Shown: positions 56,477 through 62,471 of the stretch, one piece after another
How positions within the stretch are numbered: position 1 is the first letter of the stretch
Layout of the letters: the number at the start of each line of letters is the position of its first letter
NCBI GenBank assembly: GCA_000585075.1
Contig: JEMY01000037.1
Location: 1-62,471 of the forward strand
DNA: 62,471 nt
Direction: 5' to 3'
Source of the DNA: Candidatus Accumulibacter regalis
GTDB taxonomy: Bacteria > Pseudomonadota > Gammaproteobacteria > Burkholderiales > Rhodocyclaceae
Translations under genes and position numbers: made by a program
The notes under the pieces: generated by a model
Database searches by the model: none
Told to the model about the DNA's origin: nothing
The model's input: the letters and a program-made list of their open reading frames with translations, nothing else

Positions 56477-56495
56477 TGTAGTGCTGCGTTCTTTA

Positions 56496-57402
56496 TCAGC
56501 GGCGAACAAACTGAATGGGCTGTAACTCCCCAGCCGGGCTTTCAGGCTGAAAGGTGACGTGATCGATTCCCTGGTCGCTGGCCACCGCTCTGAGTAAGTG
56601 CAGGGTTTGCGGCCAAGAGGCGAGATTGGCGACCAGAACATGGGCCGACAGGGCCAGTCGCTCGGAGGCGATCGGCCAGACATGTAGATCGTGTACTTCG
56701 CTGACCCCAGGTACTTCTGCGAGCGCTTGTCCGACCAGCTCGATATTCATCGTAAAGGGCACGCCAGCAAGGGTGGCATGCGAGGCTGCGCGCAGCAGAC
56801 CGACGCTGGAGGCGAGAATCAGTCCACCAATCAGGATCGATAATAAGGGGTCAATTGGTGTCCAGCCGGTAAGCCAGATCACGACTCCTGCGGCGATGGC
56901 GGCCACCGATCCCAGTGCATCGCCCATGACGTGCAACATTGCGGCGCGAACGTTCAGATTGCGCTCACCCCGTGAAAGTAGCCACGCGACGACGAGATTG
57001 ATCAGCAACCCGAGTACGGCGACGATGCTGACTGTCGCACCATTGATACTTCCCGGGTGCTGCAGACGTTGCCAGGCTTCGCTGCCGATGACGAAGACCA
57101 CGGCCACCATGGAAACTGCATTGATCAATGCGGCCAGGAATTCGACCCGACCCGACCCAAACCATAGGTATGCCGGCGGCTGGGGGGGGCGGGCCGCCAA
57201 GCAGGCAGCCAAGGCGGATATACCGAGCGACACGCCATCGGTAACCATGTGGCCGGCGTCTGTCTGCCAGCAAGGCCAAGGATCCCGAGTGCCAACCAGC
57301 AATCAGCTCGACTACCGAGAAGCCAAGCGTAAGTGCAAGGACGAGCAGGAGGTTGTTACCTGTAGCACAGCTGTGCGCATGGGCGTGACCACGTTCGCTC
57401 AT
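56496..57402 (-). pseudogene. cation diffusion facilitator (CzcD/ZitB-like), interrupted by a 4-bp tandem duplication
   Basis: Without the duplication this would encode 300 residues: a His-rich N-terminus (RGHAHAHSC), six helices, metal sites HMVTD in helix 2 and HVMGD in helix 5, and a cytoplasmic ferredoxin-like tail. After LLALLAD the frame is broken by a doubled TCTG on the plus strand (57259-57266): one copy removed gives LLADAGHM as in intact relatives. The downstream 268 residues remain open from an internal ATG. Either a recent mutation, a phase-variable site, or a sequencing/assembly error. It is the third gene of the leftward ACR3-SigZ-CDF unit. Confidence 0.85.
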
Positions 57403-57477
57403 AACAATCCCGCGGAGGTGTTCGGGGCAGCCGCCCCCGACAAAGCGACGACCCGCGGGGCTATACCGTCAAATACG

Positions 57478-58014
57478 CTACAACGGTGGGCGCGGCGTAA
57501 AACAGCAGACACGGCCGTCCTCGTCGAAGCGGACATGGCACGCTTTTATCATTCGTTCTTTCAGGCGTTTGCGGGCACGCTGGATGCGTGACTTGGCGCC
57601 AGCCAGCGTGATGCCAAGGCGATCGGCGAGTTCTCGTTGCGACAGTCCTTCGATGTCGCACAAGGTGATTGCCAGCCGATCGGCTTCGGCAAGTTCCGAG
57701 AGCACCCGGGGCAGACACCGGTTCAGGTCGTCCACTGCCGGGAGAAGTTCGTTCTGTGGGGCGGGTAAATCGTCCGGCAGTGGGAGGTTTTCACGCGCTG
57801 CTCGTAGACGGTCGACCAGTGCATTGCGCGCCACGCGGAAAAGCCATGCCCGCGGGTTGTCGACTGCGCAGAAAAGTTTTCCTTGCATCAAGGCCTTGAT
57901 GAAGACCTCGTGAAGCACTTCGTCGGCATCATCGCGACCGATTTGATGACGCAGATAGCCACGCAACTGTGACTCGCACATTGACCAGGCTGTAAGCAGG
58001 CACGGAGTACTCAT
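57478..58014 (-). CDS. sigZ: RNA polymerase sigma factor, SigZ type (ECF-like)
   Basis: A 178-residue sigma factor. Region 2 is QLRGYLRHQIGRDDADEVLHEVFIKAL and DNPRAWLFRVARNALVDRLR; region 4 is LCDIEGLSQRELADRLGITLAGAKSRIQRAR. The C-terminal CHVRFDEDGRVCCFTPRPP with three Cys is the SigZ tail. It begins 2 bp past the ACR3 stop, a tight arrangement implying co-transcription with the arsenite exporter. No anti-sigma gene is adjacent. Confidence 0.88.
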   Translation of the reverse strand: MSTPCLLTAWSMCESQLRGYLRHQIGRDDADEVLHEVFIKALMQGKLFCAVDNPRAWLFRVARNALVDRLRAARENLPLPDDLPAPQNELLPAVDDLNRCLPRVLSELAEADRLAITLCDIEGLSQRELADRLGITLAGAKSRIQRARKRLKERMIKACHVRFDEDGRVCCFTPRPPL

Positions 58015-58016
58015 GC

Positions 58017-59078
58017 CTATCTGCAGTTTTCTTTGCCGAGATCGTCGCCGCTGCTGGCCGGAGCATAGCGGTACCAGTGCTCGGTGCGATTGACGAGTGC
58101 CACCAAGGACAGCATCACCGGCACCTCAACCAGCACGCCGACCACGGTGGCCAGGGCCGCACCCGAGTTCAGGCCAAACAGTGAGATCGCCACTGCCACC
58201 GCCAACTCGAAGAAGTTCGAGGTCCCGATCAGACAGGCGGGGCCGGCGACGTTGTGCGGCAGCTTCAGCATACGGGCGCCAATCATGCCGATGGCGAAAA
58301 TACCGTAGGTCTGCACAATCAGCGGCACCGCGATCATCGCGATCACCAACGGCCGGTCCACGATGGTCCCGGCCTGGAAGCCGAACAGCAGTACCACCGT
58401 GGCAATCAGTCCGACGACGGACCACGGCTTGAGCTTCGCCACGAAGTCGGCGACCGCGTGTGAACTGCGGCGCCCCAGCGCGTGCCGTGTGGCCATGCCG
58501 GCGGCCAGAGGAAGCACCACGTACAAGACGGTCGACAGCACCAGGGTTTCCCATGGCACGCTGATGTTGGTAACGCCCAGCAGGAAGGCGGCGATCGGTG
58601 CGAACGCGAACACCATGATGAGGTCGTTCACCGACACCTGCACCAGTGTGTAGTTGGCGTCGCCCTTCACCAATTGGCTCCACACGAACACCATCGCGGT
58701 GCAAGGCGCCACGCCGAGCAGGATCATGCCGGCAATGTATTCGTTGGCCGACTGTGGATCGACCCAGGGCGCAAACAGGTGCTTGAAGAACAGCACGCCG
58801 AGCGCGGCCATCGTAAACGGCTTGATCAGCCAGTTCACGACCAGTGTCAGCAGCAGGCCCCGCGGCTTCTTGCCGACGTCTCTTACCGCATGCCAGTCGA
58901 TCTGGATCATCATCGGGTAGATCATTACCCAGATGAACACTGCCACCACCAGGTTCACATGGGCGATCTCCAGCCCGGCGATGATCTGGAAGGTGTCGGG
59001 CGCTGCCAGGCCCAGCGCGACGCCAGCAAGAATGCCCAGCGCAACCCAGACGGTTAGATAACGTTCAAACAGTCCCAT
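58017..59078 (-). CDS. acr3: arsenite efflux transporter ACR3 (ArsB-type function)
   Basis: A 353-residue ten-helix carrier, normal length. The conserved cysteine required for arsenite transport is C126 in [14 protein letters not shown]; the later [14 protein letters not shown] carries the conserved Glu. It exports arsenite across the inner membrane. It is the intact core of the leftward arsenic unit, downstream of a damaged arsC and an arsD-arsA scar. Directly followed by sigZ. Confidence 0.96.
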
Positions 59079-59099
59079 GTCAGACCCCTGCTGTCGTTT

Positions 59100-59385
59100 T
59101 CAAATGCACTTCACCTGCGTCTCGGCCAGATGTGCGGCGGGGTCGGATGTCGCCAGATGCACGGGCAAGCCGCGCAGTGCAAGCGCCACCGAAATTACTG
59201 CTGCCAGCGTGGTCTTGCCCACCCCTCCCCTGCTGCCGGGCGAGATTGAAGCGCTCGATCTGCACGCCGTTCTGCTTCGCCCAGTCCACGTCGGCCGCGA
59301 AGCTTACGAGGGCCTGGTCGATGTCGACGCCACACACGCCTGTGCTGCAGCATAGAGCCGGATCAAAGATCTGGATGTTGGCCAT
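59100..59385 (-). pseudogene. arsD'-'arsA deletion scar
   Basis: From the ATG at 59385 the protein reads as ArsD (IFDPALCCSTGVCGVDIDQAL...VQIERFNLA) with the paired Cys of that metallochaperone, for about 50 residues. Around 59230-59240 it runs into the ArsA P-loop in another frame (GGVGKTTLAAVISVALALRG and then ATSDPAAHLAET) which ends at 59100 after about 42 codons. The rest of arsD and almost all of arsA are gone, so both are inactive. Confidence 0.85.
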
Positions 59386-59423
59386 TTCGAGACTCCATCG
59401 AAAGTTGAAATATTGGCAAGGAA

Positions 59424-59876
59424 TTAGGGCACCAACTTGCCAATGCGGTCCAGCTCGCGCTGTAGTTGGGCGTGGTCCCCCGCCGACGCGACCAGCGGCA
59501 GAGCAAGGAAGGCCTCGATGCGTACACGCAGGATGCGATAAGTGGCCATAAACGCCGCTTCGACGTCTTCTTCGCTTCCGTTTGTACGGCCAGGGTCTTC
59601 CACAGCCCAATGGCTTTGTACGACTTGCCCAAGCTATGCGGGGCAGATCTCTCCTGCAGCGCTTGAACAGACCGTAACCACAATGTCTGGAGTAAGCGGC
59701 AGGTTTTCCCAAGATTTGCTGTAACAGCCAAGGGTAGAGATTCCCTCGCGGGCGAGCAAGGCGATCGCGCTCGAATTGAGATGGCCAGTCGGTTGGCTCC
59801 CCGCGCTCATGGCGTTCCGAGCAGGGGGAATGAGTACGCGACATCCGCGATGGGGCGTTGAAAATAACATTTTCAC
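59424..59876 (-). pseudogene. arsC: arsenate reductase ArsC (thioredoxin-coupled type), decayed
   Basis: A 150-codon frame with one in-frame TAG at codon 81 (59634-59636). Otherwise most of the protein is readable: SAGSQPTGHLNSSAIALL, GISTLGCYSKSWENLP, PDIVVTVCSSAAGEICPA, stop, LGQVVQSHWAVEDP, and a C-terminus ending in ELDRIGKLVP. The phosphatase-like loop CX5R at the N-terminus is changed: the first cysteine is a serine (S6), one residue is inserted, and a following segment is missing. So the enzyme would be dead even if the stop were read through. Confidence 0.85.
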
Positions 59877-59914
59877 AGTTCTAATAGTATAGTACTATTT
59901 AAGCGTCGCACAAG
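59871..59914. promoter_or_regulatory. divergent promoter with AATAGTA-TAG-TACTATT palindrome (arsC | gapdh-arsJ)
   Basis: A perfect 7-bp inverted repeat at 59883-59899 sits in the only AT-rich stretch between the leftward arsC and the rightward gapdh gene. Candidate elements: rightward TTTCAC, N16, TACTAT; leftward TTGTGC, N16, TATACT. Both -10s overlap the palindrome, fitting an ArsR-type operator. No ArsR gene is found in the window. Confidence 0.55.
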
Positions 59915-59995
59915 CTGAAATCGCTTGCCGCGTTCAGGTTTTTGGCTCACTGGCAGGTCTGCCGAGCACCACTCACCCTTTCGGAGGAACGAGAA

Positions 59996-61006
59996 ATGAC
60001 TATCAAGGTTGGCATCAACGGTTTCGGTCGCATGGGCCGGTTGGCTTTGCGCGCGGCATGGGACTATCCGGAACTCGAGGTCGTCCACATCAACGAAGCC
60101 AACGGGCCAGTGGAATCTGCGGCGCACCTGCTCGAATTCGATTCCGTGCAGGGCCGCTGGCAGCGTGACATTTCGGTCAGCAACGGGCACATGCGGGTGG
60201 ACGGCAAGTCGATCAGCTATAGCAGCGCCAAAGACGTGGCCGGTGGTCCGTGGAGCGAAGCTGGGGTGGACATCGTTCTCGAGGCCAGTGGCAAGTGGCG
60301 TACGGTCGGGCAACTGTCGCCCTATTTGGCAGCGGGAGTAAAGAAGGTCATTGTCGCCGCGCCGGTCAAGGACGGGGATGTCTTGAACGTCGTCATGGGG
60401 GTCAACGACCATCTCTACGATCCGGCGCGCGACCAGATCGTCACCGCCGCCTCGTGCACCACCAATTGCCTGGCACCGGTGGTCAAGGTCGTCCACGAAG
60501 CAATCGGCATTACACGCGGGATGATCACCACGATCCACAGCTCCACCAATACGCAGAGCGTGCACGATCAAATGCACAAAGACCTGCGTCGCGCCCGGGC
60601 AGCCAGTCTGTCACTGGTACCGACGACCACCGGTTCGGCGACCGCCATCGCACTGATTTTCCCGGAATTGAAGGGCAAACTCGATGGCCATGCGGTGCGC
60701 GTACCGCTGCTCAACGCGTCGCTGACTGATTGTGTCTTCGAGATGAAGCGCCCAACGACCGCCGCCGAAGTCAATGCCCTGTTCAAGGCAGCTTCTGAAG
60801 GCCCGCTGAAGGGAATCCTGGGCTACGAGGAGCGGCCGCTGGTCTCCATGGACTACCTGGGTGATCCGCGGTCGTCGATTGTTGACGCTGCGCACACGCT
60901 GGTGGTCGACGGCACGATGCTCAAGATCTACGCCTGGTACGACAACGAGTGGGGTTACGCCAATCGCTACGTCGAGTTGGCGCGCAAGCTGGCGACTTCG
61001 CTCTAG
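59996..61006 (+). CDS. gapdh: glyceraldehyde-3-phosphate dehydrogenase of the ArsJ system
   Basis: A 336-residue GAPDH. NAD site [10 protein letters not shown] is at residues 7-16, the catalytic C154 in [10 protein letters not shown], and the conserved [10 protein letters not shown] is near the C-terminus. Placed directly ahead of arsJ (93 bp), the arrangement known to make 1-arseno-3-phosphoglycerate from arsenate, which ArsJ exports. The usual central-metabolism GAPDH would not sit here. The start at MTIKV follows GGAGG; an upstream frame extension is not used. Confidence 0.93.
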
Positions 61007-61099
61007 GTAGGCACTTCGTAGCATCGCGCCGGGGTTATTACTGCAGCCAATTTCGCGGACAAGAACCCCGGTGCGCGGGCACCCCTTTGGAGGAAAGCA

Positions 61100-62398
61100 A
61101 TGAGCGAACCATCACAAGCCAAGACCAACGCATCGCGCGCGGGCCTGCGCAACTACGTCGTGGTGACCGGCGCCTATTGGGCGGACACGGTCACCGATGG
61201 CGCCACCCGCATGCTGGTGCTGTTCTATTTCTACAACCTTGGCTACTCGCCTCTTGCCGTCGCCTCGCTGTTCATCTTCTACGAAATCTTCGGCATTCTG
61301 ACCAATCTCTTCGGTGGCTACATCGGCGCCCGCTTCGGGCTCAAGTCAACGCTGTTCATCGGCCTTGGCACGCAGCTGGTGGCGCTGTCGATGCTCGCCT
61401 TCGCACCGCATGCCTGGCTGGTCGTTGCCTGGGTGATGGTCTCGCAGGCCTTGAGCGGGATCGCCAAGGACATGACCAAGATGAGCTCGAAGAGTGCCGT
61501 CAAGCTGATCGTCCCGGAGAACGCTTCCGACACGCTATACCGCTGGGTGGCCATTCTGACCGGATCGAAGAATGCGTTGAAGGGCGTCGGCTTCTTCCTT
61601 GGCGGCCTGCTCCTGACCCTGTTCGATTTTCAGACCGCGCTCAAGTTGCTCGTCGTGCTGGTGGCGCTGGCCTTGATTCTGGCCGCCACTCTGATGCGCG
61701 GCGGCCTCGGCCAGGCCAACAAGAAGGCCAAATTTTCGCAGGTCTTCTCGCACAATGCGTCAGTCAACAAGCTGGCCGCAGCGCGCATCTTTCTCTTTGG
61801 TGCCCGCGACGTCTGGTTCGTCGTCGGCCTGCCGGTATTCCTTCGCGGCGTGCTGGGTTGGTCCTTCTGGCAGGCGGGTGGTTTCCTCGCAGTCTGGGTG
61901 ATCGGCTACGGCATCGTCCAGGCGGCGACTCCGCGGCTGCTGCGTAGCCGGGTCGATGAGCAACACGAACCCGACGGGCGCACCGCGACCATCCTCGCCT
62001 TCGTTCTCGCCGCGCTGCCGGCTGGCATCGCCCTGGCGTTGAGTGCGGGTGTGGCGCCAGCGGTGGTCGTGGTTGCCGGCTTGATCGTCTTCGGGGTGGT
62101 TTTCGCGCTCAACTCGGCGGTGCACTCCTACCTGATCCTGGCCTATACCGACAGCGACAAGGTGGCGATGAACGTTGGCTTCTATTACATGGCGAATGCC
62201 GGCGGCCGTCTGGCCGGCACGGTTCTTTCGGGCGCTCTCTATCAGTGGGGTCTGCAGAGCGGCCCGAGCAACGGTCTGGTCGCCTGCCTGTGGGCTTCCT
62301 CAGCGTTCGTTCTTGTTGCTGGCTTGCTTTCACTGCTCTTGCCACGAAATCCCGGCCCGCGTAGTAAGCCGATCAAGCTGGGCGACCTGGGCGACTAG
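61100..62398 (+). CDS. arsJ: organoarsenical efflux MFS transporter ArsJ
   Basis: A 432-residue major facilitator with 12 helices. Family features: NYVVVTGAYWADTVTDGATRMLVLFYFYNLGYS at the N-terminus, GIAKDMTKMSSKSAVK in the cytoplasmic loop after helix 4 and YYMANAGGRLAGTVLSGALYQWGL in the C-terminal half. With the GAPDH it exports the unstable arseno-phosphoglycerate, giving arsenate resistance without reduction. GGAGGAAAGC precedes the ATG. Ends 14 bp before the right copy of the 60-bp repeat. Confidence 0.95.
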   Translation: MSEPSQAKTNASRAGLRNYVVVTGAYWADTVTDGATRMLVLFYFYNLGYSPLAVASLFIFYEIFGILTNLFGGYIGARFGLKSTLFIGLGTQLVALSMLAFAPHAWLVVAWVMVSQALSGIAKDMTKMSSKSAVKLIVPENASDTLYRWVAILTGSKNALKGVGFFLGGLLLTLFDFQTALKLLVVLVALALILAATLMRGGLGQANKKAKFSQVFSHNASVNKLAAARIFLFGARDVWFVVGLPVFLRGVLGWSFWQAGGFLAVWVIGYGIVQAATPRLLRSRVDEQHEPDGRTATILAFVLAALPAGIALALSAGVAPAVVVVAGLIVFGVVFALNSAVHSYLILAYTDSDKVAMNVGFYYMANAGGRLAGTVLSGALYQWGLQSGPSNGLVACLWASSAFVLVAGLLSLLLPRNPGPRSKPIKLGDLGD

Positions 62399-62411
62399 TT
62401 CGCCGGAGGGT

Positions 62412-62471
62412 GAGTACGGTCACAGTTCGTGATGGTGTTTGGTGGTTTTCTGGTCACGCAGCGTGATGGAG
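62412..62471 (+). repeat. 60-bp direct repeat, right copy (runs to the window edge)
   Basis: Partner of 48048-48107 in the same orientation, 52 of 60 bases identical by hand alignment. It begins 14 bp after the arsJ stop. It may extend beyond the window. Confidence 0.8.

Follow-up and report, generated by a model that had tools for sequence, protein, structure and literature searches.

Why should an arsenic island lose its genes for arsenate reduction and keep those for the export of arsenite and arsenate intact? The question is raised by the right end of a 62,471-nt stretch of DNA, contig C37 (JEMY01000037.1) of Candidatus Accumulibacter regalis, which was analysed as a whole and is called the window here. 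Remnants of arsC, arsD and arsA lie there between an intact gene for the arsenite efflux transporter ACR3 and an intact pair encoding a GAPDH and the exporter ArsJ. The first-pass annotation took this mix for a switch of arsenate strategy in progress, a view that comparison with the rest of the genome and genus does not support: reductase genes are present on contigs C28 and C1, and ArsJ matches in 25 of the 28 genomes of the genus that were searched. The damage is ordinary operon loss. Judging from sequence comparison, we consider it probable that this is a second, acquired island in which arsC, arsD, arsA and a cation diffusion facilitator (CDF) gene were lost neutrally, as redundant, and not through a change of strategy; such a switch is not needed because the genome has the reductase genes of C28 and C1 as well as a second GAPDH-ArsJ pair on contig C40.

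Ruined arsC, arsD and arsA beside intact exporter genes

Among the 28 genomes, G000 is the window's own, and G106, G108, G124 and so on are its relatives. The features that carry the argument are listed here by position in the window, with protein lengths in amino acids (aa).

56494..62410: arsenic island; left limit set by homology to G106:C81, right limit by homology to locus L005/G108:C51
58017..59078, minus strand: ACR3 arsenite efflux transporter, 353 aa, intact; TIGR00832 405.7 bits (cut-off 282.8)
59080..59118, minus strand: terminal arsA remnant, the last 12 codons and the native stop
59119..59233, minus strand: arsA remnant with the second P-loop (RGGVGKTT), about 37 codons, from codon 337 on; out of frame with both neighbours
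59080..59385, minus strand: chimeric open reading frame, 101 aa, comprising ArsD 1-50, out-of-frame arsA and the last residues of ArsA with its stop
59424..59834, minus strand: arsC remnant, codons 24-159 of the intact G106 gene (159 aa); PF01451, and TIGR02691 at 41.7 bits (as a piece, with X at the stop)
59996..61006, plus strand: ArsJ-associated GAPDH, 336 aa, intact; NF033735 551.4 bits (cut-off 450)
61100..62398, plus strand: ArsJ, exporter of the major facilitator superfamily, 432 aa, intact; NF033734 571.6 bits (cut-off 400)

A working arsC-arsD-arsA operon would have to encode an ArsC with a start codon and a C-x5-R P-loop, a complete ArsD and a two-domain ArsA, none of which is found. 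The start codon of arsC and its catalytic P-loop (CTGNSCR) fall inside an 87-bp deletion relative to G106, and the rest of the frame is interrupted by an in-frame TAG at 59634-59636, which is codon 90 of the intact gene and codon 81 when counted from the GTG at 59876; the loss of the catalytic Cys and the stop had both been recognized correctly in the first-pass annotation. Two downstream Cys are still present in the remnant (TVCSSAAGEIC). What is left of arsD are its first 50 codons, up to a deletion of ~1236 bp that runs from arsD into arsA (PF06953 positions 1-51 of 123, E 2e-21), and ArsA is reduced to ~49 of 596 codons. A third deletion (631 bp) separates the two arsA remnants in the 3' part of the gene; the three junctions share 0, 2 and 3 bp. 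The result is the short fused arsD/arsA scar already described from the first pass, a 101-aa chimera (59080-59385) that keeps Cys12, Cys13 and Cys18 of ArsD and stops one base before the ACR3 start.

ACR3, GAPDH and ArsJ, by contrast with these remnants, are complete, as had been claimed, and all score over their NCBIfam cut-offs. The transport-path motifs of ACR3 are present, with APCTAM from residue 124 and SNFFELA from residue 287, which we take to hold the conserved Cys and Glu of its transport path. GAPDH lies 93 bp upstream of ArsJ on the same strand, and ArsJ is a predicted exporter of arsenate or of its phosphoglycerate ester.

An open copy and a second, independent wreck in relatives

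The island recurs in another member of the genus (G106:C81) at 94-96% DNA identity (~95%), where arsC (159 aa, CTGNSCR P-loop), arsD (121 aa), arsA (596 aa) and the CDF gene (298 aa) are all open and stand in the same order. ArsD of this copy scores 128.1 bits against NF033727 (cut-off 90) and covers PF06953 positions 1-123, and ArsA scores 881.9 bits against TIGR04291 (cut-off 650); its ArsJ is truncated by the contig end. The comparison with close relatives proposed in the first pass thus shows open arsC, arsD and arsA at the same place, and the window's damage is real.

A third copy, in Ca. Accumulibacter meliphilus UW-LDO-IC (locus L005, which does not differ from G108:C51 over its first 12,000 bases), shares 95% (ACR3), 98% (GAPDH) and 94% (ArsJ) protein identity with the window. 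It carries a deletion of ~1381 bp inside arsA (junction with 4 bp shared), another of ~714 bp from arsD into arsC, which was read by eye from the sequences (BLAST left 22 bases unmatched), and a third, small one that took a few more bases from the arsC start. L005 has retained the P-loop of arsC and the start of arsA, both lost in the window, and lacks the arsD start and the arsA middle, both kept in the window. Because each copy has pieces that the other lost, neither scar can be derived from the other, and on these alignments arsCDA decay has happened at least twice, independently. Breakpoints common to both copies were considered and rejected: a first DNA match merely reflected the window's own deletions, and alignment to G106 places the breakpoints differently. 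In an ArsJ tree (19 proteins given, 18 used, L045 with 1 residue being dropped and L043, which lacks a start, forming a very long branch), the window and L005 group together with moderate support (89/82); only 3 of the 15 inner branches reach the programme's mark, and this pairing alone is taken from the tree. This natural series of one open and two independently broken copies suggests that a cell with ACR3 and GAPDH-ArsJ can do without arsCDA.

Retained genes and remnants differ in their substitutions as well. Between the window and G106, the ratio of nonsynonymous to synonymous substitution rates (dN/dS) is 0.098 for ACR3, 0.085 for the SigZ-like sigma factor gene next to it, 0.109 for GAPDH and 0.087 for ArsJ (first 161 codons), vs 0.42 for the arsC remnant and 0.56 and 0.76 for the two arsA pieces. 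Counted together, the arsC and arsA remnants hold 15 nonsynonymous and 11 synonymous changes and the retained genes 31 and 100 (Fisher p 0.0016); this count excludes the arsD stub (1:5). In pairs with L005, dN/dS is 0.16-0.18 for ACR3 and 0.02-0.09 for GAPDH and ArsJ.

Other arsenic genes in the same genome

A strain with this island would need an arsenate reductase elsewhere, as had been pointed out in the first pass, and a check of the genome, a draft of 85 contigs, found ArsC genes on C28 and C1. C28 has a complete cluster of arsR, an ArsI/CadI-family enzyme, a low-molecular-weight (LMW, thioredoxin-type) ArsC with the P-loop CTGNSARS, an ACR3, and a fusion of a glutaredoxin-type ArsC with ArsN2. 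Both glutaredoxin-type proteins exceed the TIGR00014 cut-off of 106.05, with 137.9 bits (C28) and 131.6 bits (C1). The fusion joins the ArsC and the ArsN2 acetyltransferase in one frame (L149:6141-6971) and scores 141.9 bits against NF040501 (cut-off 125). The LMW proteins of C28 and G106 appear to be ArsC-like, judging by PF01451, the CTGNS[AC]R P-loop, the ACR3 neighbour or operon context and their relatives; the G106 protein is 69% identical to the annotated ArsC of the Azoarcus plasmid pAZKH. Three of the four PF01451 matches in the genome, on C44, C60 and C56, were rejected as reductases, since they are closest to tyrosine-phosphatase models, below the cut-offs of those models.

On C40, a second ArsJ (88% identical) and GAPDH (89%) are divergent from arsR and an ACR3 (55%). 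This locus (L150:112-8677) lies inside a glycolysis cluster, flanked by the enolase gene at one end and by those for fructose-bisphosphate aldolase and phosphofructokinase at the opposite end. Searches of the genome with the LMW ArsC and ArsA queries found neither a full ArsA nor another copy of the window's arsA or arsC. ACR3 works without ArsA.

ArsJ as the common arsenate scheme of the genus

ArsJ matches were obtained in 25 of the 28 genomes, 23 of them full length or nearly so and free of stops; the G106 match is cut by the contig end and that of G124 is degenerate, with stops. The LMW ArsC query matched only two genomes, G000 (the C28 gene and the C37 remnant) and G106. ArsA matched 23 genomes at E <= 0.001, full length in G106 alone, the others being the G000 and G108 remnants and short P-loop matches. 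Because ArsJ is found in 25 of 28 genomes, LMW ArsC in 2 and full ArsA in 1, ArsJ is regarded as the resident scheme, which places it as the common arsenate scheme of Accumulibacter. This organism removes phosphorus from wastewater, and its uptake of phosphate should bring it into contact with arsenate. arsC, arsD and arsA look like newcomer genes, probably acquired from outside by few members of the genus and now being lost. In the family, ArsA was found at E <= 1e-30 in 58 of 199 sampled genomes, with a best identity of 77% and some matches partial.

The idea that the genus has no arsenate reductase was rejected, for although LMW ArsC is limited to two genomes, 25 of 28 score above the TIGR00014 ArsC cut-off; the exceptions are G103 (in two pieces), G108, which is 90% complete, and G113, which is 72% complete. 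Other proteins with PF03960 were rejected as ArsC proper: the two tested, one from G000 (L162) and one from G106 (L164), both pass TIGR01617, a Spx/MgsR-related model, and they lie just under the cut-off of the PRK10853 'ArsC family reductase'.

At the 13 ArsJ loci closest to the window's (L005-L017), GAPDH stands beside ArsJ in all 13 and some ACR3 is nearby in all except L008; these ACR3 proteins are mostly only 30-57% identical to that of the window. An ArsR-like frame, named by eye, lies in the gap at L006, L008, L009, L010 and L011, among the gaps read. Even the ArsJ branch is decaying in one relative, G124, where L171:975-7200 (G124:C4) holds a degenerate GAPDH-ArsJ pair with stops, near an enolase frame that matches only part of the enolase N-terminal model.

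Comparison with known systems

Arsenate resistance in the absence of a working reductase is already on record for Halomonas sp. GFAJ-1 and Vibrio cholerae. GFAJ-1 carries ACR3 and ArsJ-GAPDH and lacks a functional arsenate reductase, according to the passages that describe its arsenic genes; its annotated arsC, located away from these, proved inactive (PMC5930303). The GFAJ-1 island (arsH1-acr3-2-arsH2, mfs1-mfs2-gapdh) resembles that of the window in combining ACR3 and GAPDH-ArsJ without a functional reductase in the same place. It differs in the presence of ArsH and, in the passages describing it, no arsCDA remnants appear, whereas the window's genome has other reductase genes. Vibrio cholerae likewise relies on GAPDH and ArsJ, and its inactive ArsC is discussed by the authors of that work as a possible vestige of ArsCB (PMC9601151). 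Its var operon (arsR, the GAPDH gene varG, varH, arsJ) is like the window in having GAPDH-ArsJ while ArsC is out of action, with the difference that V. cholerae ArsC keeps its catalytic residues and ArsB is missing, whereas in the window arsC is partly deleted and ACR3 is intact. As for the first-pass statement that arsenate is exported as its phosphoglycerate conjugate, one of two published models agrees with it (PMC5930303, as excerpted); in the other, the ester in V. cholerae is reported to be dissociated, not exported, and arsenate leaves through ArsJ (PMC9601151, as excerpted).

Two plasmids show the arrangement of an intact operon. The order arsR-arsC-arsD-arsA-ACR3 on pAZKH of Azoarcus sp. 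KH32C is that of the intact ancestor, with 71% (arsA), 72% (arsD) and 69% (arsC) protein identity to G106; it differs in a helix-turn-helix regulator before arsC, in having no GAPDH-ArsJ within 9.7 kb, and in an ACR3 of only 52% identity. Plasmid unnamed2 of Comamonas sp. C11 has arsC, arsD, arsA, ACR3, a sigma factor and, further on, a CDF gene, as in G106 (75% for arsA, 75% for arsD, 70% for arsC, 53% for ACR3, 45% for the sigma factor and 39% for CDF). It differs in five genes between the sigma factor and CDF, a second arsC, a phosphatase gene, and the lack of ArsJ within 9.3 kb. Our literature search found no paper combining Accumulibacter and arsJ, and among the matches listed for arsJ or arsC pseudogenes none bore on this case.

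Neutral loss weighed against its rivals

By neutral loss of redundant genes, the history of the locus would run as follows. An ancestral island, CDF - SigZ - ACR3 - arsADC, divergent from GAPDH - ArsJ, would have been acquired as a second arsenic locus; arsC, arsD, arsA and CDF would then have been lost through neutral deletion and slippage, their job being covered elsewhere in the genome. ACR3 would still export arsenite, whether this is made by the reductases of C28 and C1 or enters the cell as arsenite, and GAPDH and ArsJ would still export arsenate via 1-arseno-3-phosphoglycerate. Redundancy, rather than a changed strategy, would have permitted the decay.

Several observations weigh against this account. 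Redundancy explains the UW-LDO-IC locus poorly, as this strain may truly be without an arsenate reductase: in its genome (G108, 90% complete) the LMW ArsC query found no match, and the TIGR00014 score, 29.1 bits, stays below the cut-off. The reductases that would make arsC redundant in the window's genome are themselves open to doubt. Against TIGR02691 (cut-off 174.3 bits), the LMW ArsC proteins score 63.5 (C28) and 78.9 (G106), below the cut-off. No other arsenic genes are seen in the 1.4 kb viewed around the C1 ArsC, which may be inactive, because the annotated arsC of GFAJ-1 that stands apart from arsenic genes was inactive in the account cited above. The arsD stub, with 1 nonsynonymous and 5 synonymous changes and a dN/dS of 0.05, does not look neutral and is suggestive, but only suggestive, of constraint (p 0.17 vs the other remnants). 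In favour of the account, ACR3, GAPDH and ArsJ are spared by every one of five large deletions, three of them in the window and two in L005; this has a chance of 0.007 under uniform placement, a figure that is biased because the loci were found through their ArsJ.

Removal of arsCDA could also have been adaptive. Making arsenite would be a liability in a phosphate-cycling ArsJ lineage, so that arsCDA would be selected against repeatedly, with ArsJ exporting arsenate and ACR3 dealing with arsenite from outside. Two independent losses among three island copies fit this, as do the counts for full ArsA, LMW ArsC and ArsJ in the genus (1, 2 and 25 of 28) beside those for ArsA in the family (58 of 199), the seeming lack of a reductase in G108, and the inhibition of V. 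cholerae when the Escherichia coli arsC allele took the place of its own. In the same excerpts an arsenite exporter restored growth (PMC9601151), and the window's island keeps such an exporter in ACR3. Its genome also retains an intact LMW ArsC and the ArsC-ArsN2 fusion, TIGR00014 ArsC exceeds its cut-off in 25 of 28 genomes, and decay also affects the CDF gene, for which no link to arsenate is known. We therefore hold adaptive removal to be improbable. A wider proposal is unlikely, too: that Accumulibacter repeatedly acquire and then purge arsCDA, arsenate reduction beside GAPDH-ArsJ being harmful or useless given their phosphate cycling, and that UW-LDO-IC is a natural ArsJ and ACR3 strain without a reductase. 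With its apparent lack of a reductase, UW-LDO-IC is the case to study for selection on arsCDA loss in a phosphate-cycling genus.

The deletions could also be misjoins between strains of a metagenome. An 85-contig draft, possibly from a mixed sample, and a contig that ends 73 bases past ArsJ speak for such an assembly or binning artefact. Because the window junctions share only 0-3 bp, however, a mis-join by the assembler on long shared words is unlikely; the remnants contain an in-frame stop and a raised nonsynonymous share, no second copy of arsA or of the window's arsC was found in the genome, and another relative is scarred at the same genes, all of which makes an artefact very improbable. 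Continued use of the scar is very improbable as well. With the metal-binding start of ArsD retained, the 101-aa chimera might bind arsenite on behalf of ACR3 or maintain translational coupling to it. In support, its frame begins at the native start of arsD and stays open up to the native stop of arsA despite two junctions and an out-of-frame piece, and its arsD part has the 1:5 ratio. These are only six changes without a significant difference from the other remnants, ArsA, the known partner of ArsD, is gone, and L005 lacks the arsD start. Neutral loss of redundant genes remains the probable explanation.

Layout, flanks and signs of mobility

The remaining features of the island are:

56496..57402, minus strand: CDF gene, frameshifted; PF01545 on a 268-aa part
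57478..58014, minus strand: SigZ-like sigma factor of the extracytoplasmic function type, 178 aa, intact; TIGR02959 159.6 bits
59835..59995: intergenic region between GAPDH and scar, 90% identical to G106, without arsR

Outward from GAPDH, the minus strand thus carries the arsC remnant, the arsD/arsA scar, ACR3, the SigZ-like factor and the frameshifted CDF gene, divergent from the intact GAPDH and ArsJ on the plus strand. The sigma factor scores below the TIGR02959 cut-off of 168.65 and is called only SigZ-like; it opens the stretch marked in the first pass, where it had gone unmentioned. At L012:5114-6684, a SigZ homologue (76%) follows an ACR3 of only distant relationship (31%) next to GAPDH-ArsJ, so SigZ may travel with different ACR3 genes. 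Compared with the open 298-aa gene of G106, the CDF gene has frameshifts of +4, +1 and +5 bp, comprising two tandem-slip duplications and one in a G run.

The island's left neighbours are not alike in the window, G106 and L005. In the window they form an ABC transporter set, which recurs at 94% in G124 and, partly deleted, on G108:C27, both without the island; no match to the G124 locus was found within the left flank of the G106 island. Because of this, either the island has sat in different places or its surroundings have been rearranged. No clean empty insertion site was found, as the sequence beyond the ABC-transporter neighbour differs in G124 and G108:C27; in UW-LDO-IC, this ABC-transporter locus (L170:6088-7046) has lost large internal pieces. 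A tyrosine recombinase and an ArsP permease lie to the left of the G106 island. In UW-LDO-IC, three tandem tyrosine recombinases stand directly beside ACR3 (L005:233-3359), and SigZ and CDF were not found at that locus. On the right, contig C37 ends at 62471, and the flank is comparable over the last 61 window bases only, with L005 alone, as the G106 contig stops inside ArsJ.

A search with one ArsR model (PF12840) gave five matches in the genome, none of them on C37, and in the intact version of G106 the gap between arsC and GAPDH has only 179 bases. An AT-rich palindrome upstream of GAPDH (window 59880-59910), less perfect in G106 and L005, is possibly a promoter or a site for an ArsR acting in trans. 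A TTCTA stretch loosely similar to it precedes GAPDH at the other loci printed.

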